Below, piece after piece: positions 15,545 through 33,896 of a stretch of 64,000 bases of DNA. Position 1 is the stretch's first letter; each line of letters begins with the position of its first letter. The notes below the pieces were generated by a model. That model was not told the origin of the DNA. It did no database searches and saw only the letters and a list, made by a program, of their open reading frames with translations. This DNA is from Allorhodopirellula heiligendammensis (lineage in GTDB: Bacteria; Planctomycetota; Planctomycetia; Pirellulales; Pirellulaceae): NCBI RefSeq assembly GCF_007860105.1, contig NZ_SJPU01000001.1:2253700-2317699 (forward strand), written 5' to 3'. The position numbers were made by a program, and so were the translations under genes.

Positions 15545-17464
15545 CTAGACATCAATTTCGCTGGCGTCCTCGGCTCGCTCCATGATAAACCGAAATCGTG
15601 CTGAGGCATCGCGGCCCATCAGGTCACTGATCGCTTTATCGGTTTCGAGATGATCGTCAATTTCGACCTTCAGAAGTCTCCGCTTGCTAGGATCGAGCGT
15701 CGTGTTCCAAAGCACCTTCGGATCCATTTCACCGAGACCTTTAAAGCGTGTGATTTTGGGTTCGGCGCGGCCGCCATGTTCGCCGACGATTTGATCGCGA
15801 GCAGCTTCATCGGCGGCCCAAAAGGTTTCTTTACCGATGTCAACGCGGTAGAGCGGCGGCACCGCGATGAACAAGCGACCGTCGGCGATGAGGGCCGGCA
15901 TGTGCCGATAGAAAAATGTGAGCAAGAGCGTCGTAATGTGGTGCCCGTCAGAGTCCGCATCCGCCAGTAGGATAACGCGATCGTATCGCAGATCAGGCAA
16001 GTTGACGTGAGCGCCGATACCGCAACCGAGCGTGGCGATCAAATCTTGGATTTCCTTGTTGTCGAGAATTTTCTTTAGCGTCGCCGACTCGGTATTGAGC
16101 ACCTTGCCGCGCAGTGGCAAGATCGCTTGGTAGTTGCGGTCCCGTCCTTGCTTCGCACTACCGCCGGCGGAGTCGCCTTCGACGATGAATAATTCCGTTT
16201 TACCTTTCCCTCCCGAAACACAATCCCCGAGTTTGCTGGGAAGCATCACACGTTTGGAGCCACCTTTCCGTGACACCGCGTCACTCGCTGCCCGCGAGGC
16301 CGCGCGAGCCCGGGCGGCCGCGATTACCCGCGCAATCACTCCGTCAGCGATACTGGGATTGTTATTGAGCCACTGCTCCATCGCGCCACGAACGTGGGAC
16401 TCGACCAGTCCTTGCGCCTCGGGATTATTCAGCCTGTCTTTTGTTTGCCCCTGGAACTGGGGCTCGGAAATGAACAGTGAGACAATCGCAATCAAGCCCT
16501 CACGAATATCCTCGTGAGTAATCTTGACACCGCGGGGAGTTAGATCGTGGGTGTCAATGTAGTTGCGGGCGGCCTTGACGAGCCCGCTACGAAAACCGTT
16601 TTCGTGTGATCCACCGCTGGCAGTCGGGATCCCGTTGACATACGAGCGGACATGCTCATCCGTCGATTCCGTCCACTGCAGGGCTACCTCGAGGCGTTCA
16701 TTGTCGTCGATCCGATAGGTAAAGGGCGTGTCATGAATGGCCCGCGCACCGCGTTCCTTCATCACTTTGGCGAGATAATCGACGATGCCATTCTCATGCA
16801 GGTACGTGACCTTCGTACCGGCAACTTCATCAACATAGGTGACCTTCACACCGCGATGCAAGAATGATGCGGTTTCAAGTCGGGCCGAGATCGTCTCGCC
16901 ATTAAACGTCGTCTTGGGAAAGATCGTCGGATCGGGCTTGAACGTGATCGTCGTCCCCGTCCCGCGAACGGTGCCTTTGAGTTTTTGCAACTTGGACGTC
17001 GCAACGCCCCTGGCAAAGGTCATGCGGTACTGCGCCCCATCGCGTTTGACGACGGCCGTCAGTTCCTTGCTGAGCGCATTAACGACGGACGCGCCGACAC
17101 CGTGCAAACCACCGGAGGTTTTATAGTTAGCACCCTCGAACTTGCCCCCCGCGTGCAGCACCGTCAGCACCATCTCGAGGGCTGGTTTCTTTGTCTTGGG
17201 GTGTTTGTCGATCGGAATCCCGCGTCCGTTGTCACTGACTGTAATCGTCTGTTCGTCTTTGTGCAGCGTCACGGTGATCTCGCTGGCGTAGCCATTCATG
17301 GCTTCGTCCACCGAGTTATCAACGATTTCCCAAATTAAATGATGTAGCCCCGCCGAGTTCACGCCACCGATGTACATCCCGGGGCGTTTGCGAACGGGAT
17401 CGAGCCCCTCGAGCGCGATGATGTCTTTCGCGTTGTACGTGCTCGGTGGAGTTGCAGTCGACAT
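15545..17464 (-). CDS. Type IIA DNA topoisomerase subunit B (GyrB/ParE type)
   Basis: ATPase subunit of a type IIA topoisomerase (gyrase or topoisomerase IV). The GHKL ATPase has EIVDNSVDEAMNGYA, DNGRGIP and TSGGLHGVGASVVNALS. The transducer follows, then the TOPRIM domain with EGDSAGGSAKQGRDR and DADSDGHH, and the GyrB C-terminal tail (ITRFKGLGEMDP). Its 639 residues fit the short form without the E. coli insert. The tail ARFRFIMERAEDASEIDV differs from typical gyrases. It lies 66 bases downstream of the A subunit gene on the same strand, so the pair is one operon in A-B order. Which of gyrase or topoisomerase IV it is cannot be decided here, so no symbol is given. Confidence 0.95.
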   Translation of the reverse strand: MSTATPPSTYNAKDIIALEGLDPVRKRPGMYIGGVNSAGLHHLIWEIVDNSVDEAMNGYASEITVTLHKDEQTITVSDNGRGIPIDKHPKTKKPALEMVLTVLHAGGKFEGANYKTSGGLHGVGASVVNALSKELTAVVKRDGAQYRMTFARGVATSKLQKLKGTVRGTGTTITFKPDPTIFPKTTFNGETISARLETASFLHRGVKVTYVDEVAGTKVTYLHENGIVDYLAKVMKERGARAIHDTPFTYRIDDNERLEVALQWTESTDEHVRSYVNGIPTASGGSHENGFRSGLVKAARNYIDTHDLTPRGVKITHEDIREGLIAIVSLFISEPQFQGQTKDRLNNPEAQGLVESHVRGAMEQWLNNNPSIADGVIARVIAAARARAASRAASDAVSRKGGSKRVMLPSKLGDCVSGGKGKTELFIVEGDSAGGSAKQGRDRNYQAILPLRGKVLNTESATLKKILDNKEIQDLIATLGCGIGAHVNLPDLRYDRVILLADADSDGHHITTLLLTFFYRHMPALIADGRLFIAVPPLYRVDIGKETFWAADEAARDQIVGEHGGRAEPKITRFKGLGEMDPKVLWNTTLDPSKRRLLKVEIDDHLETDKAISDLMGRDASARFRFIMERAEDASEIDV

Positions 17465-17530
17465 ATTTCGGTATCAGCGGAGAATCAAGAAAAGAGAAAT
17501 TAAAAACTAACGAGCAGCTGGCGGCTCTCG

Positions 17531-19969
17531 TCACTCGTCGAAATTCGTGGGCGGCTCAATCGGGGCTTGGACAATCTCGGCGATCTTGCCATTCTTCTGT
17601 AGTTCAATCCCCCGCCCACCCCGGGAGGTCGTACGATACTTGGCGGTGGAGATTGTCTTCTTGGCACCGCGGTTCGTAACGACCGTCATCAGATCACGAT
17701 CAGCAACGGATGTCTTGAAACCGAGTAAGCGATCAGTGTTCGCGAGCTTGATTAGCAGAACGCCTTTTCCTGCACCGGAGAGGTAATTGACCTCGTCGAC
17801 AGGACACACCATCGCCCGGGCGTCGGCAGAAACCGCGAGCACCGTCTCGGTACCATGCACCGTGACGACATCGACGATCGACGCACCGGCCGTCAGCCGG
17901 GCGAACCGGCGTCCGGCGCGGGTGGAGGGTTCCGCAAATGAGGGCAAGCCAAACCGGAGGGAATAACCATCGCTCGAGACTGCCAGCGCATGCGTTTCAG
18001 GGTAGTACACGCCTTTGGGATCCTCGCTGATGTTACCGATCACGCGTGGATCAAACGACAGTGCCGCAACGATCCGCTCGCCATCTTTGAATTTAAATAG
18101 CTTCTGGATCGGTTCGCCAAATCCTGTCGACGCCGGGATGTCCTGCATGCGAGCGGTGTAGCAAACCCCGAGCGAGCTGAAAAATGCGATCGTTTCTCGA
18201 GTGTTGCCTGCCACACAGGCGAGTACCTGGTCGCCCTGGCGTAGTCGACTCTTGGATGGATCCGCGATCAGCTTTTGGCGTTTCACCCAGCCATCGACGG
18301 TGACCATCACGTGGCAGTTCTCTGCGACGATGAAATCCTCCTCGGTATACTCGACTTCTTCAGTCGGCACGGTGATCTTGGTTCGTCGCCGACCTTCGTC
18401 GCCTTTACCGTAGTCGGTCACGAGCGAGGTGAGTTCGTCACGGATGATGTTCCATCGTCCTGAGGAGGCAAAATCCTCGTGGTCATCGGCGAGCAGTTTT
18501 TCGATCTCCGTGACGCGTTTCCGCTTGGCTTTGAGTTCGTCGAGGATCACGTTGATTTCCAGACGTGCCAACCGATAGAGTTTCAGCTCGAGAATGGCAT
18601 CGGTTTGTTCCGCATCGAGCCCCCCCTTTTCAGCAGGGAACCGCTTCATGATCTTGGCAGCCGCATCGGCTTTACCGTCGCTGCCGCGGATGATCTTGAT
18701 GATTGTATCGAGAGCGTCGAAGACAATCGCAAAACCCTCGAGGATGTGGATCCGCCGCAGCAAGGAGTTCAGTTCGTTCGTCAGGCGTGCGGTGAGGACG
18801 TCGAACCGGAACTTAAGGAAATACCACAGGATCTCTTTGAGGGACAATCGGCGGGGCGAACCGACCTCAGGATTCTCAGTGGGTGTCAGACATGTCAGGT
18901 TGACATTGAAGTTCGTCTGCAGAGGTGTGTGCTTGTAGAGAAACGCGAGCACCTTCTCGGGATCCGCATTCTTTTTCAGCAGCAGATCCACCCGAATGTC
19001 TTCGCTCGAGAGATCACGGACTTCCTCGACAAGCGGCAGTTTGTTGGCGTAAACGAGTTCGGTAATCCGTTCCACCATCTGAGCTTTGTTGACGCCGAAC
19101 GGGATCTCCGTGATGCGCAGGATATCACCAGTCTTCGTCGATTCCGCGACTTCACCAACGCCGCGCAGTTTGATCGTGCCCGTCCCCGTCGCGTAGATCT
19201 CTCGCAGTTCGTCCTTGCTATTGACGATCAGCCCACCGGTGGGAAAGTCCGGGCCAGAGATCGCGTCGGCAGCAACAAGCTGGTAGTCCTTGATCTCAGG
19301 GTCTCGCAGCAATTTCAATAAAGCGTTGCAGACTTCCTTCAAGTTGTGTGGCGGTATGTTCGTGGCCATGCCGACGGCGATCCCCGTGGCACCGTTGACG
19401 AGCATGTTCGGAACACGTGAGGGCAGTACGACAGGTTCTTCACGGGTGCCGTCGTAGCTCGGTTTGAACGCGACGGTTCGCGTCGCAAGGTCCGCCAGAA
19501 CTTCCGAGGCGATCGGCATCATGCGGCATTCGGTATACCGCATCGCCGCGGCGTTGTCGCCGTCAATGCTGCCGAAGTTGCCGCTGCCGTCGATCATCGG
19601 CATGCGGAGCGAGAACGACTGACTCATCCGCACGAGGGCTTCGTAAATCGAGCTATCACCATGGGGGTGGTAATTACCCATCACGTCGCCGACGACTTTG
19701 GCACACTTGCGGTGCTTCGCAGTGGAGTCGAGTCGCTGCTGGAACATCGTATAGAGGATCCGCCGCTGAACCGGCTTGAGTCCATCCCGGACATCGGGAA
19801 GGGCGCGTGATGTGATCACCGAGAGCGAATAGTTCAGATATCGATCCTGAGCCGCCATCCGCAGAGGGATGTTCTCAATCTCACGGAACATGGATTCGTC
19901 AGGGACGCCGCCACGTTTGGATTTTCTGTTATTCGTGCCGTTTGTGGAGGAAGAACGCCGTTTTGCCAC
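17531..19969 (-). CDS. Type IIA DNA topoisomerase subunit A (GyrA/ParC type)
   Basis: DNA breakage-reunion subunit. The catalytic tyrosine is Y145 in AAMRYTECRM. The quinolone-region block is HPHGDSSIYEALV, with S106 and E110 at the positions of E. coli GyrA S83 and D87. The coiled-coil tower and C-gate follow, then beta-pinwheel blades from about 510. The canonical GyrA box (QRRGGKG) is absent from the first blade, which reads LIADPSKSRLRQGDQV. A partial look-alike, SRGGRG, occurs only in the last blade near the C-terminus. This argues for topoisomerase IV-like or unusual gyrase activity. The N-terminus has a basic Ser/Asn-rich extension of about 25 residues. First gene of the A-B operon, reading away from the secreted-protein genes at 20.4 kb. 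Confidence 0.95.
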   Translation of the reverse strand: MAKRRSSSTNGTNNRKSKRGGVPDESMFREIENIPLRMAAQDRYLNYSLSVITSRALPDVRDGLKPVQRRILYTMFQQRLDSTAKHRKCAKVVGDVMGNYHPHGDSSIYEALVRMSQSFSLRMPMIDGSGNFGSIDGDNAAAMRYTECRMMPIASEVLADLATRTVAFKPSYDGTREEPVVLPSRVPNMLVNGATGIAVGMATNIPPHNLKEVCNALLKLLRDPEIKDYQLVAADAISGPDFPTGGLIVNSKDELREIYATGTGTIKLRGVGEVAESTKTGDILRITEIPFGVNKAQMVERITELVYANKLPLVEEVRDLSSEDIRVDLLLKKNADPEKVLAFLYKHTPLQTNFNVNLTCLTPTENPEVGSPRRLSLKEILWYFLKFRFDVLTARLTNELNSLLRRIHILEGFAIVFDALDTIIKIIRGSDGKADAAAKIMKRFPAEKGGLDAEQTDAILELKLYRLARLEINVILDELKAKRKRVTEIEKLLADDHEDFASSGRWNIIRDELTSLVTDYGKGDEGRRRTKITVPTEEVEYTEEDFIVAENCHVMVTVDGWVKRQKLIADPSKSRLRQGDQVLACVAGNTRETIAFFSSLGVCYTARMQDIPASTGFGEPIQKLFKFKDGERIVAALSFDPRVIGNISEDPKGVYYPETHALAVSSDGYSLRFGLPSFAEPSTRAGRRFARLTAGASIVDVVTVHGTETVLAVSADARAMVCPVDEVNYLSGAGKGVLLIKLANTDRLLGFKTSVADRDLMTVVTNRGAKKTISTAKYRTTSRGGRGIELQKNGKIAEIVQAPIEPPTNFDE

Positions 19970-22951: not shown

Positions 22952-23334
22952 GGGGCGTTCTCGTTAGAAAGTTTGAAGTCGATGAGAATCAGTCACGTTC
23001 GTCGTAGTCTTGCGGTGCCCATTGACCAGTCGGCAGGCGGACAACGCAGACCCTCTACACTGAAATAAATACGTCAGTCTGCCTAGCGGTCGACTCACCG
23101 GCGATCGAGACGAGCAACCAGCGCGCCGTCGATCGACCATAGTCAGACCGCAGATGCGAAGGCTCGCGAGAGACCTGCTCATCCCTCGACCATCCATTGC
23201 ATCGCCGCGTGAGTGGAAAATCAACCGCCGCCCACTCACTGCTGCAGAAAATGAGTTTTCGGCAAACCAAACGAGGTCAGGCTGCGTAGCCTCCAGACCT
23301 ATCAAACTTTTTCCTTCGTTTTGAGTTGCCGAGC
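22952..23334. other. Divergent intergenic region, ATPase / ABC permease
   Basis: About 380 bases between two divergent genes. It must contain both promoters, but no clear -35/-10 pair, hairpin or operator stood out. A 202-codon frame on the minus strand crosses it and overlaps the permease start; its composition is not protein-like. Confidence 0.5.
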
Positions 23335-25119
23335 ATGATCGCTGGCCCATCCACCGCACACCTGTCGCCGATGTCGTTTCTCGATTCACTGGGCACTTCG
23401 TCGGATTCATGGCTGATGCTGGGGGCCATCGGAGAATGGTTGCCTTCATTTGCGACGCCAATTTGGGTGCTTTCGATCGGGTTACTGCTCGGTGCCATCG
23501 CCGTGGTCGTGGTTTTTGGCGTGCTCTCGCTACTCTCCTACGTGCCCGCTCTGGGTACGCTGGCGGATTCACCGAATCGCGGCGTGTCGGTGTCGCTCGT
23601 TGTGGGGGCGATCATTTCCGCCATCCTCTGCATTATCTATCTTCCGCAAGGGGGGGATAACCAGCAGTTATTGCTGCTGCCGCTGATCACGATTGGCTTG
23701 GGACTGGGTTTCGGACTGATCTATGGGATGTGGCATCGCACCCGCAGTGAATGGTTGTCAATGCTAGGCGAAGGAGTCGTGCCTTACTTGCTGGGAACGG
23801 CCGGCGTATTCGCTGGTCTGGGACTGCTACTGACGCCCTTTATCGAAAAACCTCAGGCAATTCTGGCAAGCATCCCCGCTGTGAATGTGTTTAGCGACGG
23901 CACGCAGGTGGAGATCGCGACCATTGATCCAGCCTCGGGTGACGAACCAGAGTACTTAGCTGCGGATATTCAATACAACTTCCGCAGTGTGGCTGAACTG
24001 ACCATCGAGAGCGACAAAAAGGTTTTCTTGGCAGACTCCGCTGATCCTGCCACCTTCTCGCGAGCACCGGTCGAATTGAATCCGGGCAGCAACGAAGCGA
24101 TCAAATACAAATACGAAGACCGGGAACAGCCACCGATTCCTGGCGACCCGAGCAAATTGCATATCTACAATCAAGAAATCGATCCAGCGCAAGTGGTGTT
24201 TACCTTCAAAAACTTGCCGCAGGTTCCACAAGCGTCATCCATTGTCTTCACGGCCATCATCTTCTTCTTGGGGATCACGGGATTGATAGCGATGCGTCAA
24301 GCCGCCCCCCGAGTGTGGGCACTTGCATTGTCGACGGCCAAGAACGAGATGGCCCAGCCGCTCTATCTGCTGCTCCTGTCGCTGGGTGGGTTTGGTATCC
24401 TCCTGTTCGGGATCTTCCCGTTTTACACTCTCGGCGACGATATTCGATTGCTCAAGGACAGTGCTGTCACTCTGATCATGATCATGGGCATGCTGTTGGC
24501 CGTTTGGAGTGCGGGTACATCGGTCAGCGATGAAATTGAAGGACGAACCGCACTGACCGTGTTGAGTAAACCTGTGAGCCGTCGATCGTTCGTGTTGGGC
24601 AAGTACGCTGGCATCATGCTGAGTGTGATGGTGTTCTTCGTCATCCTGTCAGCTGTCTTGATGGTCGTGCTCAGTTACAAGCCGATTTACGACGCGCGAG
24701 AATCCAGTGGTGCCACACCCACCTGGCAGGTCGGACATGAAGAGATCATGACCACGCTACCAGTGATTGGGTTGTATTTCATGGAGACGATGGCGATCGG
24801 TGGGATTGCCGTCGCGTTAGCCACACGTTTGCCTCTATTAGCGAACTTCATCACCTGTTTTTCCATCTACGTGATCGGGAACCTCACCAGCCCGTTGGTG
24901 GCCGCGGCCAAGGAGAATACGGAACTCGTAGGGTTTATTGGAAAGTTAATCGCCGTGGTCGTGCCCAACTTGAACTCATTCAACGTCCAGGCGGCGGTGG
25001 ATTCAGGGAGTGCCGTGCCGTTGATCTACCTCGCGGGTGCATTCAACTATCTCTTTGTGTTCGTCGTCGCGGTATGGATGTTGGCGATGTTGATGTTTGA
25101 GGATCGCGACTTGGCGTAG
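23335..25119 (+). CDS. ABC-2-type transport permease
   Basis: Polytopic membrane protein of the ABC-2 permease class. Two N-terminal helices (PIWVLSIGLLLGAIAVV, VSVSLVVGAIISAILC) and two more precede a large extracytoplasmic domain (about 180-300). A six-helix ABC-2 core follows, with the diagnostic cytoplasmic block DEIEGRTALTVLSKPVSRRSFVLGKY. The frame opens with a TTG at 23326; I take the ATG at 23335, and an ATG at 23371 is also possible. No intact ABC ATPase that could power it is encoded nearby. The gene 101 bases downstream is an ABC protein with ruined ATP-binding motifs, so its motor is either elsewhere or absent. Confidence 0.85.
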   Translation: MIAGPSTAHLSPMSFLDSLGTSSDSWLMLGAIGEWLPSFATPIWVLSIGLLLGAIAVVVVFGVLSLLSYVPALGTLADSPNRGVSVSLVVGAIISAILCIIYLPQGGDNQQLLLLPLITIGLGLGFGLIYGMWHRTRSEWLSMLGEGVVPYLLGTAGVFAGLGLLLTPFIEKPQAILASIPAVNVFSDGTQVEIATIDPASGDEPEYLAADIQYNFRSVAELTIESDKKVFLADSADPATFSRAPVELNPGSNEAIKYKYEDREQPPIPGDPSKLHIYNQEIDPAQVVFTFKNLPQVPQASSIVFTAIIFFLGITGLIAMRQAAPRVWALALSTAKNEMAQPLYLLLLSLGGFGILLFGIFPFYTLGDDIRLLKDSAVTLIMIMGMLLAVWSAGTSVSDEIEGRTALTVLSKPVSRRSFVLGKYAGIMLSVMVFFVILSAVLMVVLSYKPIYDARESSGATPTWQVGHEEIMTTLPVIGLYFMETMAIGGIAVALATRLPLLANFITCFSIYVIGNLTSPLVAAAKENTELVGFIGKLIAVVVPNLNSFNVQAAVDSGSAVPLIYLAGAFNYLFVFVVAVWMLAMLMFEDRDLA

Positions 25120-25220: not shown

Positions 25221-27104
25221 GTGAATCGATTTTCAACTTTGGATCAACCACGCCGAGAAACGGCGGCCTCCGGCGCCGTGTTTCATTGGTTTTGGGCGAT
25301 TGTTGCGGGACTTTCCGTACCCGTATTGATCGTTCTCTTCGGCATGGTTGCAGCGCTCGTTGATGACGGTGAACTCGCCCACCGACCGGGTGACGCCATC
25401 GAGCGTGGGCTCATGGGATCGCACGTTGAACTTGGCACCTACCTCCACATCCCGTTGACCGAGGGTTTCCAACGCCAAACGCCCTTTACACAGCTCCTGG
25501 AATTGGTTGCCCTGTGCGTTGCGGTAGCAGGTATTATTTGCGTAACCGTCTGGATCAATCGCTGGTCGTCGGACAGTCGGACACGAAGCGTAATCAAAAT
25601 GCTGCATCAGCGAGTGTTGCAGCAAAGTCTGAAACGCAGTGAAACCGAAGGGGCTGCGGCTCAACGATCTCGCGCAAAGCAGCTGATCTGCACCGAACTA
25701 CCAAACCTCAGCGTTGGCTTGTCGCTGTGGTATCGCGTGATTCCCCGCAGCGCTGTGATTCTGATCGGTTGTGTCGTCCTGGCGCTGCTTGTCAATATTT
25801 GGTTGGCAATCTTGGCGGTTGTCAGTGGCGCTGCGTTATGGTGGTTGTACGTCTGGCTGCGGAGCACGGGGTGGCTGGAGATGTCACAGTTCGAAATCTC
25901 GCAGATTCGTGAGCGACTCGTAGGACTGATCGGCGATGCACCCATGATGGGCCGCCTCCAAGCAGGCGGGCTCGCCGAGGACGCCTACGAGGGTGAACTC
26001 GATGCCTTGATGAGACGGCTTGCCGCCAATGATGCGAGGCAGGGCCGATTGTGGCCCTTGCTGATGTTTGCGAGCTGCATTGCTGTCGCGGTATTAGTGA
26101 TGGGACTCGGTGCCAATATTCTGCACGGCGAGCAGGGCCTGAGTCTGCCGGCCGCGCTAGTACTCGGAATGGCGCTGACGACGGCCGCGTTGTCGGCGGC
26201 GCGGCTGAACGAACTCGCTCGCCAACTCAAACTTAGCTCGCATGCGGCGGAAGCGGTGTATCTCTACCTGCAGCGTGGAGACGATGTGGCACCGAGCGAA
26301 CGTCTCGTGGGCATCGCCGGGCTGCGGGAATCCGTTGAGCTGCGGGATGTTTCACTATCGGACACAACCGGCAAACCGATTCTGCGGGAGCTGAGTCTAT
26401 CCTTGCGACCGAAATCACTCGTGGCGTTATTGGGTTCCGATGATGTGTCGACGCAGTCGTTAACCGAGTTACTGATGGGCTTCGGCCGGCCGCAGCGAGG
26501 CGTTGTTGAAATTGACGGCGTGACACTGAAAGACGTTCATCCTCAGGCACTCGCCAAACAGGTCATGTGGGTTGCTCCCGACGGGCCACTCTGGGAGGGC
26601 ACGATCACCGAAAACCTGATGTCTGGGGTGAGCAAGTCGGTTGACAAGCGAGACATGGTCAAAGTTCTCGAGCAATTGGGCATTTACGAGCAGATCACGC
26701 GGCTCAGTGATGGGCTCGAAACGATGGTCGGGCCCGTCACCGATTTACGAGATGGTCGCTCCAGCGACGGGTTATCGATGATGTCCCGCTATCTGCTTGG
26801 TATCGCGCGGGCGATGTTGCATCAACCTGCGATCGTATTGGTCAAGGAACCACCCGCGCCCACCGAACACGTCAACAGCGACCCCTGTTTGGTGGCCCTG
26901 CGGAGCCTCGCTGATGCCGGTTCTCTGGTGCTGGTACTGCCACGTCGACTACAGACACTTCGACAAGCCGATCGCGTGGTATTGCTCAACGGCCCCAATC
27001 TTGTTGGAGAGGGTGGTCATGCTGAATTACTCAATAGCAGCGATCTCTATCGCCATTTGAATTACCTCCTGTTCAATCCCTATCGCCATCGCGCGGGGGT
27101 TTGA
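25221..27104 (+). CDS. ABC exporter-like membrane protein with degenerate ATPase domain
   Basis: The layout is that of a type IV ABC half-exporter: transmembrane domain (about 20-330) then nucleotide-binding domain (about 365-610), 627 residues. The ATPase part keeps the fold but not the chemistry. The P-loop at 405-414 reads GSDDVSTQSL, with no lysine and most glycines lost. The Q-loop reads VAPDGPLW. The signature at 518-522 reads LSMMS instead of LSGGQ. Walker B reads IVLVKEPPA with K542 in place of the aspartate, though E543 remains. The H-loop histidine is lost (LPRRLQTL). The frame is otherwise intact and long, so this is a maintained pseudo-ATPase rather than a broken gene. It lies between an ABC-2 permease and a CPBP protease, 6 bases before the latter. 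Confidence 0.85.
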   Translation: MNRFSTLDQPRRETAASGAVFHWFWAIVAGLSVPVLIVLFGMVAALVDDGELAHRPGDAIERGLMGSHVELGTYLHIPLTEGFQRQTPFTQLLELVALCVAVAGIICVTVWINRWSSDSRTRSVIKMLHQRVLQQSLKRSETEGAAAQRSRAKQLICTELPNLSVGLSLWYRVIPRSAVILIGCVVLALLVNIWLAILAVVSGAALWWLYVWLRSTGWLEMSQFEISQIRERLVGLIGDAPMMGRLQAGGLAEDAYEGELDALMRRLAANDARQGRLWPLLMFASCIAVAVLVMGLGANILHGEQGLSLPAALVLGMALTTAALSAARLNELARQLKLSSHAAEAVYLYLQRGDDVAPSERLVGIAGLRESVELRDVSLSDTTGKPILRELSLSLRPKSLVALLGSDDVSTQSLTELLMGFGRPQRGVVEIDGVTLKDVHPQALAKQVMWVAPDGPLWEGTITENLMSGVSKSVDKRDMVKVLEQLGIYEQITRLSDGLETMVGPVTDLRDGRSSDGLSMMSRYLLGIARAMLHQPAIVLVKEPPAPTEHVNSDPCLVALRSLADAGSLVLVLPRRLQTLRQADRVVLLNGPNLVGEGGHAELLNSSDLYRHLNYLLFNPYRHRAGV

Positions 27105-27110
27105 ATCAAC

Positions 27111-27926
27111 GTGCCGGATTCGGAGAGCGACGAAGAGCCACAGACGGCGGATTCCCTGTTTCAGACCGCAGTGGTCGTGGAGGCCGGACTGGGTTTGCTG
27201 GCGGTGGTCTTGGGTTACCTATTCGGCCCCGATCCTCGGCAGTGGATACCAGTACTGGACGAGGTTCCCTCGCTTGCCGGAGGCTTAGGACTAGGCATTC
27301 TGGCAACTTTCCCCTTGTTGCTGTTGATGGCCATCATCCGCCGCATCAATCATCCGGCAGTCCAAGAGCTCGACCAATTGGCCGAGCATCCGATGATGAG
27401 TGTGATGCTCAAGATGGGACCGCTTGAGCTGCTGGCTATCAGCCTATGTGCCGGGGTAGGCGAAGAATTGCTATTTCGTGGCTGGTTGATGCCTGCGATC
27501 GCGGGTCTGCTGCACGGCGATGCTGTGTCACTCCTACCGAGCAACACCGAGTCGGTGCGTCCGTGGTGGGCCTTCGGTGGATATGCGGCAGAGGTTTTTG
27601 CCTCCCTGCCCGCCAATGCTAGCAGCATTCGTGAAAGTGCCGCGTTGACCTGGTCGGGATTTTCCGCGTGGTGGACCAATTCCATCGGCTGGGAACTGAC
27701 CCTGGGCTGGATCGCTTCATCGATCGCGTTCGGTTTCGTTCATCCGATCAGCAAATTGTACGTGGTCGTGACCGGAATCATGGGGCTGTATTTTGGGGCC
27801 CTGCTGATCCTCACGGGTAACTTGCTGATACCTATCGTCGCCCACGCCCTCTACGACGCAATCCAGCTGTGGGCTGCCTCGGCAGAAGCGCAGTCGGAAC
27901 AACGCTCCATCAAACAAACCGCCTAA
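27111..27926 (+). CDS. CPBP-family intramembrane metalloprotease
   Basis: Membrane protease of the CPBP (CaaX protease and bacteriocin-processing, Abi) family. The glutamate pair and arginine are in GVGEELLFRGWLMP, the next motif is AFGFVHPISK, and the third is IVAHALYDAIQ. These match the family's EExxxR, FxxxH and HxxxD/N pattern, so it should be active. It has several membrane segments and an acidic N-terminus. The start is a GTG at 27111, only 6 bases after the pseudo-ABC gene, so the two are almost certainly made together. Candidate role: cleaving a membrane-bound partner or precursor handled by the transporter-like proteins. Confidence 0.88.
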   Translation: MPDSESDEEPQTADSLFQTAVVVEAGLGLLAVVLGYLFGPDPRQWIPVLDEVPSLAGGLGLGILATFPLLLLMAIIRRINHPAVQELDQLAEHPMMSVMLKMGPLELLAISLCAGVGEELLFRGWLMPAIAGLLHGDAVSLLPSNTESVRPWWAFGGYAAEVFASLPANASSIRESAALTWSGFSAWWTNSIGWELTLGWIASSIAFGFVHPISKLYVVVTGIMGLYFGALLILTGNLLIPIVAHALYDAIQLWAASAEAQSEQRSIKQTA

Positions 27927-30506: not shown

Positions 30507-31172
30507 ATGGTCGCCACTGACTCATCCAGCGCTCCACCTTTGGCTAGTTCGCCAGATCCAACATCCGGTTCGAACCATGCCGGTTTTGCCAGTCTGCTAG
30601 CTCAAGCGAGGGCCGGAAACCGTGACGCGCTCGGCGAGCTCCTCCAGTGGTACGCCAACTACCTGACGATTCTGGCCAGCACCCAACTCGACCGTCGGCT
30701 TCGCCGCCGCTTGAACCCCTCTGATATTGTCCAAGAAGCGATGATGGCGGCCCACCAGGACTTCGGCGACTTCCGCGGCACCAGCCAAGGCGAACTGCTG
30801 TGCTGGCTACGGACGATCCTCATTCACACACTGCATCGCAGCTTCAAGAGAAACGTCACTGTCGAAAAGCGAGATATCCGCCGTGAGGTCTCACTGGATT
30901 CCGTCAGCAACCGGCTTGAAGAGTCTGCGGGCAACTTAGCCGCCATATTGCCCGCCAACAGTCCGTCGCCCAGCGCGCCCATGCAAGCTCGTGAACGCGC
31001 CGTCGCGTTGGCGGATCAACTCAGTGAGCTGAAGCCCCACTACCGTGAAGTGATCGTCCTACGGGTACTGCAGGGTCTCTCGTTTGATGAGATTGCTCAA
31101 CGTATGGACCGCAACTGTGGTGCAGTCCGCATGCTCTGGCTGCGTGCACTGGAGAGTTTTAAAAACAAATAG
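30507..31172 (+). CDS. ECF-type RNA polymerase sigma factor
   Basis: Extracytoplasmic-function sigma factor of the planctomycete type. Region 2 is seen in RRLNPSDIVQEAMMAAHQDF and the core-binding/-10 stretch CWLRTILIHTLHRSFKR. Region 4 carries the helix-turn-helix HYREVIVLRVLQGLSFDEIA. A 25-residue Ser/Pro-rich head precedes region 2. At 221 residues it has the normal length. A Ser/Thr kinase with TPR repeats starts 99 bases downstream on the same strand, a pairing common in planctomycetes, where the kinase is thought to take the place of an anti-sigma factor. No separate anti-sigma gene is present. Confidence 0.92.
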   Translation: MVATDSSSAPPLASSPDPTSGSNHAGFASLLAQARAGNRDALGELLQWYANYLTILASTQLDRRLRRRLNPSDIVQEAMMAAHQDFGDFRGTSQGELLCWLRTILIHTLHRSFKRNVTVEKRDIRREVSLDSVSNRLEESAGNLAAILPANSPSPSAPMQARERAVALADQLSELKPHYREVIVLRVLQGLSFDEIAQRMDRNCGAVRMLWLRALESFKNK

Positions 31173-31271
31173 TGTCCGAACACCTGCTCGTCAGCGTCCA
31201 CTTAAATTCATTTCATTGACCCTATTGAGTCCAAAATCCACCCGTGAGGGTCGGCCGAAAACGAGAGAGCG

Positions 31272-33896
31272 ATGGTTGCATTGAACAGTTCCAGCATAGC
31301 ATTGAGCGCAGGTGATCCGTCCTTAATCGATGGGTTGAACGCAGACCAACAGTCTTGTTTGACCGAGTTGCTTGACCGGTATCTCGTTGGGTTGGAAAAC
31401 GGCGAGCGGCTCGACGCGGAGCTCATCAATCGTGAGAACCCGGACCTCGCCGAGGTGTTCACGAGCTATCTGGAGAAACTCGACGCACTCTACGGCGTGT
31501 CGGTCGGCTTCCACGATTTCCAAAACGACGAACATGACGCCGCCGGCTCCAGCGTCAAGATGACGCTCGGCGACTTTACGATCCATCGCGAAATTGGTCG
31601 TGGCGGCATGGGCGTGGTCTATGAAGCCAACCAAGTTTCGCTTGATCGGAAAGTTGCCATCAAGCTATTGCCGCTGGCGTCACTGTTGGATTCGCGTCAA
31701 ATCTCGCGCTTTAAGAACGAAGCCCACGCTGCGGGCCTGTTGCAGCATCCTAGCATCGTTCCCATTCACAGTGTCGGCAGTGATCGCGGTGTGCACTACT
31801 ATGCGATGCAATTCATCGACGGCGTGTCAATGGACGAGTGGTGTGCAAACGAGCGTTCCGCTGTCGCGGCGGAACGACATGCCCGCCTGACTGACAGCAC
31901 TCCGTCCCAGTGGCGAACGACGATTCAGTGGGCCATCGAGATCGCCGGCGCGCTACACAATGCACATGAGAATGGCGTCATCCATCGCGACGTCAAACCA
32001 TCCAATCTGATGCTCGATCGGTGTGGCAAAATCTGGATCACCGATTTCGGTCTGGCCCGCTGTCAATCCGAGGTTTCGCTAACTCAATCAGGCGACGTTA
32101 TTGGTACGATGCGTTACATGAGCCCCGAGCAAGCGCGGGGTCAATCTGCGCTCATTGATGGTCGCGCCGATGTGTACTCGCTCGCGGTGACGCTGTATGA
32201 AATGCTGACGTTGCATCCCGCCCACGATGGCGCAGACGCACCTTCCATTTTGCAGATGATCGACCAACACGACGTCACGCCGCTGCGCCAACTGCGTCCT
32301 GACTTACCGCGTGATCTCGAAACGGTTATTTCCAAGGCCATGGCGAAATCACGCGAAGGACGGTATGAGACGGCGGCTGCATTTGCCGACGACCTCGGCC
32401 GCGTGTTGGCGGCCGAGCCCACCCTCGCTCGCCCCGCCAATCTCGGCGACCGCGTGGGTCGACTGGCTGCCAAGCATCGCAGCGTGGTGTTGACCGGCGC
32501 CGTAATTGTTGCGTTCGGTTTTGTTGGCTCCGCTGTCGCGACTGCAAAATTAGCAGTGGCAAAACAAGTTTCTGACGCGAATGCCGCCAGAGCCCTCAGT
32601 GGCGAAATGCTTGCTCGCGACGCCGTCGACCGACTGGGTTCCCAAATGGCCGAACTCCTGTCAGGCATCCCCGCCGCCGATTCCGTACGCCGACAACTTT
32701 TAATCGAAACGCTCGACTATTACGAACGATTCGCTGCCGACGTCAGGAACGATCCCACCCTGCGTGCGGACCTCGCGATCACGCTCGGCAAGTCGGGATC
32801 CTTGCAATCTGAGCTTGGTGACAACGACAAAGCCATCGACTCGCTCGGTCGCAGCGAATCGATATATCGACAGCTTGCTCACGAAACTCCCGGAGACGAT
32901 GCGCTTCTTCTAGAGTGGTCAACCAGCCAAAACAATCTTGCCGAGACGCTCGTCCGAGGCGGCAAGCTCGAAGACGCCGCACGCTACTACGCCCGCGCGA
33001 TCACGACACAGAAAAGCGTAGCCGAACACTCTGCGGCCAAGGCGTTCTCCCGCCACGCAGTGCCTGCCGCCAAGGCCAATCTCGCGTTGGCAACAACACT
33101 CAACAACCTGGGCCTGTTGTTATCGCAAACCGGTGCTGTCGAACAATCGGAAAAAGCATACCTCGAAGCAATTGAACTGCTCGAAAACCAACAAATCATC
33201 CCTGAGACAACCCACCAAATCTCGGTCGCCGAACATCCTGCCGCCATCCAACTCGCCACTGTGCGGGCCAATCTCAGTGGGCTATTAACGCCGACATCAC
33301 CCGAGAGGGCGATTGAGTACGCCCGCGAAGCACTCTCGGGCCAACTCGACGCCCTCGAAGCCGACAGGGGCAACGCGAAACTGGCAACGCAGACCATCGT
33401 GACACTCAATACTCTGGGCGCCGCCCAATCCGCGGCCAAGCAAAATGCGTCCGCCATCGAAACGTTCCGTCAAGCGATTGTGGTCGGCGATCAGTTGCTC
33501 GCACGATGGCCCGACCAAGCTACCTACCAACGTGACATGGTGCTCAGTTTAAATCACCTGGGGCTTTCGTTGTCCAAGACAGGTCAGTTGAGCGAAGCCA
33601 GCGACGCGTTTGAGAAAGCACTCGATTACGGTCGGCCGCTCGCGGCCAGGTTTGTCACCGACGCCGAAACTCGCAGCATGGTCGGCGGTGTGCTGAACAA
33701 TCTCGGCTTCCTTCGCCAACAACTCGGAGACCGTAACGCCGCCGCCGCTGCCTACGATGAAGCCATCCAGCATCAATCTGCTGCGGTGAGGCTGGCTCCT
33801 GAAGTCAACCGCTATCGCGAATACCTGAGAAAACACAAAGACAACTATCAAACCGTCGCCTTCCAATCAGCGACCCATCGGAGAACCGCATCATGA
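31272..33896 (+). CDS. Transmembrane Ser/Thr protein kinase with C-terminal TPR repeats
   Basis: Hanks-type kinase of 874 residues. A 100-residue N-terminal region precedes the kinase domain (about 100-385). That domain has the glycine loop IGRGGMGVVYEAN, K131 in VAIK, HRDVKPSN at 238-245, DFG at 258-260 and GTMRYMSPEQARG, so all catalytic residues are present. One membrane segment lies near 404-426. The outer part (about 440-860) is built of TPR units, for example TTLNNLGLLLSQTGAVEQSEKAY and GGVLNNLGFLRQQLGDRNAAAAAY. It probably senses an external or periplasmic partner and phosphorylates cytoplasmic targets, perhaps the sigma factor encoded upstream. Its stop overlaps the next start by four bases (ATGA), giving tight translational coupling to the LEPR-XLL protein. 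Confidence 0.94.
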   Translation: MVALNSSSIALSAGDPSLIDGLNADQQSCLTELLDRYLVGLENGERLDAELINRENPDLAEVFTSYLEKLDALYGVSVGFHDFQNDEHDAAGSSVKMTLGDFTIHREIGRGGMGVVYEANQVSLDRKVAIKLLPLASLLDSRQISRFKNEAHAAGLLQHPSIVPIHSVGSDRGVHYYAMQFIDGVSMDEWCANERSAVAAERHARLTDSTPSQWRTTIQWAIEIAGALHNAHENGVIHRDVKPSNLMLDRCGKIWITDFGLARCQSEVSLTQSGDVIGTMRYMSPEQARGQSALIDGRADVYSLAVTLYEMLTLHPAHDGADAPSILQMIDQHDVTPLRQLRPDLPRDLETVISKAMAKSREGRYETAAAFADDLGRVLAAEPTLARPANLGDRVGRLAAKHRSVVLTGAVIVAFGFVGSAVATAKLAVAKQVSDANAARALSGEMLARDAVDRLGSQMAELLSGIPAADSVRRQLLIETLDYYERFAADVRNDPTLRADLAITLGKSGSLQSELGDNDKAIDSLGRSESIYRQLAHETPGDDALLLEWSTSQNNLAETLVRGGKLEDAARYYARAITTQKSVAEHSAAKAFSRHAVPAAKANLALATTLNNLGLLLSQTGAVEQSEKAYLEAIELLENQQIIPETTHQISVAEHPAAIQLATVRANLSGLLTPTSPERAIEYAREALSGQLDALEADRGNAKLATQTIVTLNTLGAAQSAAKQNASAIETFRQAIVVGDQLLARWPDQATYQRDMVLSLNHLGLSLSKTGQLSEASDAFEKALDYGRPLAARFVTDAETRSMVGGVLNNLGFLRQQLGDRNAAAAAYDEAIQHQSAAVRLAPEVNRYREYLRKHKDNYQTVAFQSATHRRTAS

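Follow-up and report, generated by a model that had tools for sequence, protein, structure and literature searches.

What does an ABC exporter do once the ATPase that would drive it has lost its catalytic motifs, and why would such a gene be kept? The question is raised by a gene in the 64,000-nucleotide stretch of planctomycete DNA analysed here (hereafter, the window), where positions 25221..27104 (+ strand) encode a 627-aa protein that we call psABC, a pseudo-ABC half-exporter, on the strength of its open frame, an ABC_tran match, its exporter fold and its orthologues. The frame runs for 627 codons from a GTG start, and the orthologues in all 13 of 13 members of the genus begin at a GTG in the same place. 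A sequence-only reading of this DNA had described an open frame of that length with an intact transmembrane domain (TMD) and a nucleotide-binding domain (NBD) that kept its fold; we found zero internal stops, and both domains are present in the structure that we predicted with AlphaFold2.

A predicted exporter fold with a faint ATPase profile

By sequence profile, psABC is barely recognizable as an ABC ATPase. The Pfam ABC_tran match is weak (33 bits, residues 388-544) and, at 36 bits, ranks 65th among the 73 ABC_tran stretches listed for its own genome, the 64th scoring 56 bits; each of the eight stretches ranked below it is a partial match, sits in a frame of 853-2252 codons or scores under the cut-off. 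Among the best 25 of 75 NCBIfam models, none passed its cut-off. The AlphaFold2 model, built from an alignment of 44 family members, is that of an ABC half-exporter (pLDDT 78.7, pTM 0.74), with six long transmembrane helices in residues 1-365 (25221..26315, +; TMD assigned from the secondary structure of the model) followed by an NBD fold in residues 366-627 (26316..27101, +; assigned from Pfam, alignments and the model), in which the motifs are lost. Foldseek placed the model closest to TM287/288 (PDB 4q4j, E 3.4e-23, with a whole-chain TM-score of only 0.50), and TM287/288, P-glycoprotein and TmrAB all matched over the whole length at E ~1e-23 to 1e-22 with TM-scores of at most 0.5. A profile search against PDB sequences agreed, relating psABC to half-size exporters over most of its length, and a viral fold search returned general ABC proteins only. 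psABC is thus predicted to have the layout that defines type IV ABC exporters, a six-helix TMD and then an NBD in one chain, which it has in common with half-size members such as MsbA, Sav1866 and TM287/288. Unlike them, it lacks the Walker A motif, the signature, the Walker B aspartate, the Q-loop and the H-loop, and it carries a tail of its own, LYRHxxYxxF.

Catalytic motifs are lost across the family, except for one glutamate

We located each relic by alignment with canonical exporters. Walker A is reduced to GSDDVSTQSL (residues 405-414; 26433..26462, +), with its lysine replaced by T411; the Q-loop glutamine is P453 (26577..26579, +); the signature reads LSMMS (residues 518-522; 26772..26786, +); and the Walker B aspartate is K542, followed by an invariant glutamate, E543 (26844..26849, +). 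The residues named in the sequence-only reading for Walker A, the signature and Walker B were therefore correct. Its claim that every catalytic motif was gone does not hold, as it overlooked E543, and its report of a lost H-loop histidine applies to psABC (R575; 26943..26945, +) but not to the family as a trait, since 10 of 13 genus members have the histidine at this position.

For a family-wide census, we reduced 126 family rows to 94 distinct relatives by removing rows identical in the last 480 residues and compared these with 22 distinct canonical exporters from planctomycetes. An intact Walker A (GxxGxGK[ST]) occurred in 0/94 family members versus 22/22 controls, with GSDDVSTQS in psABC where controls have GPNGCGKST-type sequences; a single member (L114) has lysine in the lysine column, without the glycine loop. 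The signature SGG[QE] was found in 0/94 versus 21/22 (LSMMS replaces LSGGQ in psABC) and the Walker B aspartate in 0/94 versus 22/22. Losses were less complete for the Q-loop glutamine (8/94 versus 22/22) and the H-loop histidine (17/94 versus 22/22), so H-loop loss is not family-wide. By contrast, the catalytic glutamate after Walker B was present throughout (94/94 and 22/22), psABC included. R530 and G427 are likewise invariant in the family alignments, and D432 nearly so.

The C-terminus presents the opposite picture. A family-specific motif, LYRHLNYLLFNPYR (residues 609-622; 27045..27086, +), emerged from the alignment of family against canonical sequences, and its R611, H612, Y615 and F618 (R-H-x2-Y-x2-F) are each present in 94/94 family members; among the 22 controls R611 occurs in 13 and F618 in 14, and H612 and Y615 never. 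Judging from these alignments, the positions once used for catalysis are drifting, and fixation has instead occurred at a new motif in the tail. With neither a Walker side nor a signature side to contribute, psABC could not complete an ATP site from its own motifs, whether paired with itself or with a canonical partner, and the motif data strongly support its status as a non-ATPase.

Four deep-lying members, L114 (genome G415) and L163-L165 (G469, G451 and G439), keep the H-loop histidine (IAHRL or VAHRL) and have lost Walker A and B; they may be witnesses to the order in which the motifs were lost.

A probably old, patchily distributed lineage

Counts by order below refer to Pirellulales (in the NCBI taxonomy, Rhodopirellula belongs to Pirellulaceae, Pirellulales, Planctomycetia). 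By motif and score, orthologues were present in 22 of 40 genomes, including 13 of 13 in the genus, where the other 12 are 66-85% identical to psABC and have open frames. In a phylum sample of 392 genomes, all 28 of the 28 class genomes outside the order carry psABC (E <= 1e-100), and the best match in the 352 more distant genomes was a canonical exporter (L121, motifs read). Within Pirellulales, psABC was found in 15 of 127 sampled genomes, absence being set by a gap between bit scores of at least 448 for the family and at most 380 for canonical exporters, so that a very diverged member could be missed. Named genomes yielded 45 psABC loci, one of them a fragment, with carriers including Rhodopirellula, Neorhodopirellula, Rubripirellula, Stieleria, Roseiconus and Roseimaritima. 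Overall, psABC is common in the genus and patchy across the rest of Pirellulales, and none of the 28 class genomes sampled outside that order lacks it. Three of the 28 class-level matches were flagged for one stop inside the matched span; in each of these (L130, L132 and L133), psABC falls within a stop-to-stop frame (738, 653 and 622 codons).

We built a maximum-likelihood tree from 41 family and 24 canonical rows, in which one branch with support of 100/100 parts the two groups; a quick tree of the TMD alone, which contains no motif columns, gave the same split with an SH-aLRT of 93. The rows were chosen among fetched sequences and the tree is unrooted, which makes one origin the simplest reading and no proof. 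On that simplest reading of the sequences, the motif loss would predate the divergence of Pirellulales and the other carrier order(s), barring gene transfer between these orders.

psABC evolves under the constraint of a working gene

Pairwise Nei-Gojobori dN/dS for psABC, computed for 13 pairs and two domains, lay between 0.012 and 0.062 in 23 of 26 estimates, the other three being saturated; given the high synonymous divergence of many pairs, these values are approximate. For the same three pairs, psABC gave 0.033-0.053 and the permease encoded next to it 0.042-0.055. Two other genes provide comparison: a neighbouring CPBP protease (0.059 and 0.094 in two finite pairs) and MoxR (0.014 and 0.031 in two pairs). 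At the sequence level, the constraint on psABC appears to be that of a working gene.

The sequence-only reading had argued that open frames despite lost motifs imply selection for a non-ATPase role, and had proposed homologue alignments and dN/dS as checks. Both favour that argument: the lysine, signature and Walker B losses are common to 12 of 12 other genus genomes with open frames, and dN/dS is like that of the intact neighbouring permease. It had associated decay with relaxed selection and with close homologues whose motifs are intact; neither was seen, and 0/94 relatives have an intact Walker A, LSGGQ or Walker B aspartate.

psABC adjoins a predicted ABC-2 permease for which no adjacent ATPase was found

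Upstream of psABC lies a gene (23326..25119, +) for a predicted ABC-2, NosY-like permease that is extended at its N-terminus and is predicted to contain a beta-rich domain. We regard this permease as the probable partner of psABC on the basis of Pfam, fold and adjacency. Its length of 597 aa is counted from the first TTG, and the start is approximate. ABC2_membrane_2 was detected in 33 of 35 permease members scanned (E <= 0.001), and the copy in the window scores 24.9 bits against a cut-off of 27.2. In Foldseek, its AlphaFold2 model (pLDDT 74.7) came closest to the NosY chains of NosDFY, at prob 0.99-1.00, a best E of 0.02 and a TM-score to target of 0.49-0.64; no match reached E <= 0.001, and unrelated folds appear from E 0.1. 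The resemblance to NosY is low-scoring, and a search against PDB sequences gave no match at E <= 0.01.

The earlier suggestion of a link to the neighbouring permease, then a guess, gains support from the finding that the two genes adjoin in most carriers. By coordinates, the permease adjoins psABC in 15/15 carriers among the 127 Pirellulales genomes, in 14/16 further regions (L031-L046), in 18/19 regions from outside the order (L122-L140) and in 34/44 named loci (L047-L090), where one of the ten misses is a contig broken off; these sets overlap in species and the counts are not additive, and some of the searches covered short flanks. Three unlinked genomes that we searched (G018, G022 and G322) have the permease present once, elsewhere. 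The permease itself is far more widespread, with one strong match in each of 119 of the 127 Pirellulales genomes, and it occurs in 104 of the 112 scored without psABC, so psABC is not needed by the permease, and its presence adds little statistically beyond adjacency. In nine regions outside the order where the permease frame was read, the protein is 308-354 aa long and has no N-terminal extension, and it is still paired with psABC. Taken together, psABC appears to be a partner that the orphan permease can do without but that itself mostly stays beside the permease.

Orphan here refers to the ATPase. We scanned all frames near the permease for a Walker A plus signature pattern, a crude search that would miss odd ATPases, and found no such ATPase directly beside it in 80 loci (79 with psABC frames, plus the fragment L091). 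Frames with both motifs occurred in 3 of the 80 (L087, L122 and L129), 1.6-6 kb away, and two loci had weak ATPase profile matches, one overlapping psABC (L045, 56 bits) and one on the opposite strand ~1.5 kb from psABC (L139, 42 bits). Fourteen regions from genomes lacking psABC also had no ATPase of this pattern beside the permease, with frames ~4 kb away in L209 and L211; the permease frame itself is unlabelled in L202 and L209, where the scan still covered all frames. Within 1.5-kb flanks of 29 further permease loci (7 in the class, 22 outside), no frame had both motifs. Among the 73 ABC ATPase matches listed for the window's own genome, none stands out as a partner of the permease in trans. 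At L087, from one metagenome-assembled genome, the permease-psABC pair is preceded, at a distance of ~1.6 kb, by an intact ABC ATPase frame (1101-2025), which in this single case is possibly the cognate ATPase of the permease.

A scan of the psABC locus for promoters and terminators detected no sigma-70-like promoter, and terminator-like sites were near the shuffle mean.

A probable helper subunit rather than a pump

psABC has lost the fuel-burning parts of an exporter, is kept unbroken in many planctomycetes and usually lies beside the permease, a combination that points to a helper subunit rather than a pump. We therefore favour the interpretation that psABC is probably a non-catalytic (pseudo-ATPase) half-exporter acting as an accessory subunit of the upstream NosY-like permease, where it would serve as a regulator, scaffold or adaptor. 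The permease is its most likely partner, a pairing drawn from synteny. psABC would dimerize through its TMDs, its NBDs no longer going through an ATP cycle, and might dock on the permease, perhaps via the invariant C-terminal segment; once docked, it could tune, stabilize or localize the permease, which would be powered by an ATPase encoded elsewhere. A bolder version, which we put forward tentatively and think less likely than not, is a hybrid ABC machine in which a type IV exporter fold that has given up catalysis would be a dedicated and conserved subunit of a NosY-like permease, with a third component, an ATPase encoded in trans, as the motor. Such a complex would combine two ABC architectures, would predate the divergence of Pirellulales and the other carrier order(s), and would amount to a bacterial version of the SUR principle.

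By analogy, the sulfonylurea receptors would be the nearest working model. SUR1 and SUR2 (ABCC8/9) are described, in the portion of PMC9700523 consulted, as having an ABC-exporter fold that does not transport and serves as an obligate regulatory subunit of another membrane protein. For psABC, the motif loss argues for a similarly non-transporting ABC core, and a complex with the permease is suggested by synteny only. The differences are substantial: SUR has two NBDs in one chain, a TMD0 and a consensus nucleotide site, whereas psABC has 627 aa, one NBD and no consensus site, its proposed partner is an ABC-2 permease, and it is not a homologue of SUR (ABCC8/9). The comparison with NosDFY is similarly partial. 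The fold of the C-terminal half of the permease is predicted to come closest to that of NosY (prob 1.00, E 0.02), but pattern scans found no ATPase gene beside it, it is paired here with psABC, and it has an extra N-terminal region in Rhodopirellula and in many, though not all, Pirellulales.

The psABC lineage offers a clean natural case of an ABC-exporter fold used without its motor, as Walker A, the Walker B aspartate and the signature are lost in every member read, yet the gene evolves about as slowly as its working neighbour. It makes testable what an NBD scaffold does when ATP hydrolysis is impossible, and it opens a way into the study of a permease that is widespread in planctomycetes and for which our scans found no ATPase. 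A search of the titles and abstract openings of open-licence papers found no description of the family, which is weak evidence of absence.

Alternative roles for psABC

ABC-exporter folds have changed trade before, CFTR being an example alongside SUR, and psABC could by the same route be an ATP-independent transporter, flippase or channel (CFTR-like, without nucleotides) that is co-expressed with the permease for a common pathway. Its TMD is predicted to be complete and is under selection, and P175 within it is invariant in alignment set A1 and conserved in set A3. We nevertheless consider this unlikely, since NBD dN was lower than TMD dN in 12 of 13 psABC pairs, which would be odd if the TMD did the work alone.

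ABC proteins with one degenerate site are common. psABC might pair with a canonical half-exporter from another locus and form the degenerate half of the heterodimer, as in TM287/288 or TAP, a suggestion that fits both its best PDB fold match and the presence of canonical exporter-type matches in the same genome. TM287/288, TAP1/2 and ABCG5/G8 do resemble psABC in having partly inactive ABC sites kept by selection. However, the degenerate exporters covered in the sections of the review consulted pair one degenerate with one active composite site (PMC7756269), and psABC could complete neither; the few Walker A plus signature frames and the two weak profile matches described above also speak against a partner encoded nearby. 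A heterodimer with a neighbouring exporter was set aside, as no canonical half-transporter gene is adjacent in the loci read, and one with a partner in trans is possible, leaving heterodimerization as a whole quite unlikely.

Less likely still is an energy-state sensor, in which psABC would bind nucleotide without hydrolysis at a remodelled site and report to the permease. The invariance of E543, R530 and G427 and near-invariance of D432 would suit such a site, and E543, together with the H-loop histidine and Q-loop glutamine that some relatives keep, makes a residual nucleotide role possible. At the columns of the Walker A lysine and glycines and of the Q-loop, however, the family varies widely, which is unlike a binding pocket under selection. 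Simple decay of a former exporter, with the lost motifs in its favour, is hardly credible and we reject it, as the low dN/dS and the same losses and invariant columns in 94 distinct relatives contradict it.

Other genes in the window

Six bases after psABC, a CPBP/CAAX-type intramembrane protease (27111..27926, +) was identified by an Rce1-like match of 55 bits. We considered it as a third subunit alongside psABC and the permease and set this aside, because it adjoins psABC in close relatives only (detected in 5/7 genus regions and 0/9 regions from other genera). The protease also has a weak match, well short of the cut-off (E 3.8e-9), to the C-terminal region of NF041647; the name of this model, ABC permease subunit/CPBP protease, is a hint that protease and permease may be functionally linked. 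Further downstream, at 30507-33896, a sigma-factor-like frame (read by eye) is followed by a Ser/Thr kinase with TPR repeats. On the opposite strand, genes for the B and A subunits of a type II topoisomerase lie side by side at 15545-19969, as identified by Pfam DNA gyrase models.
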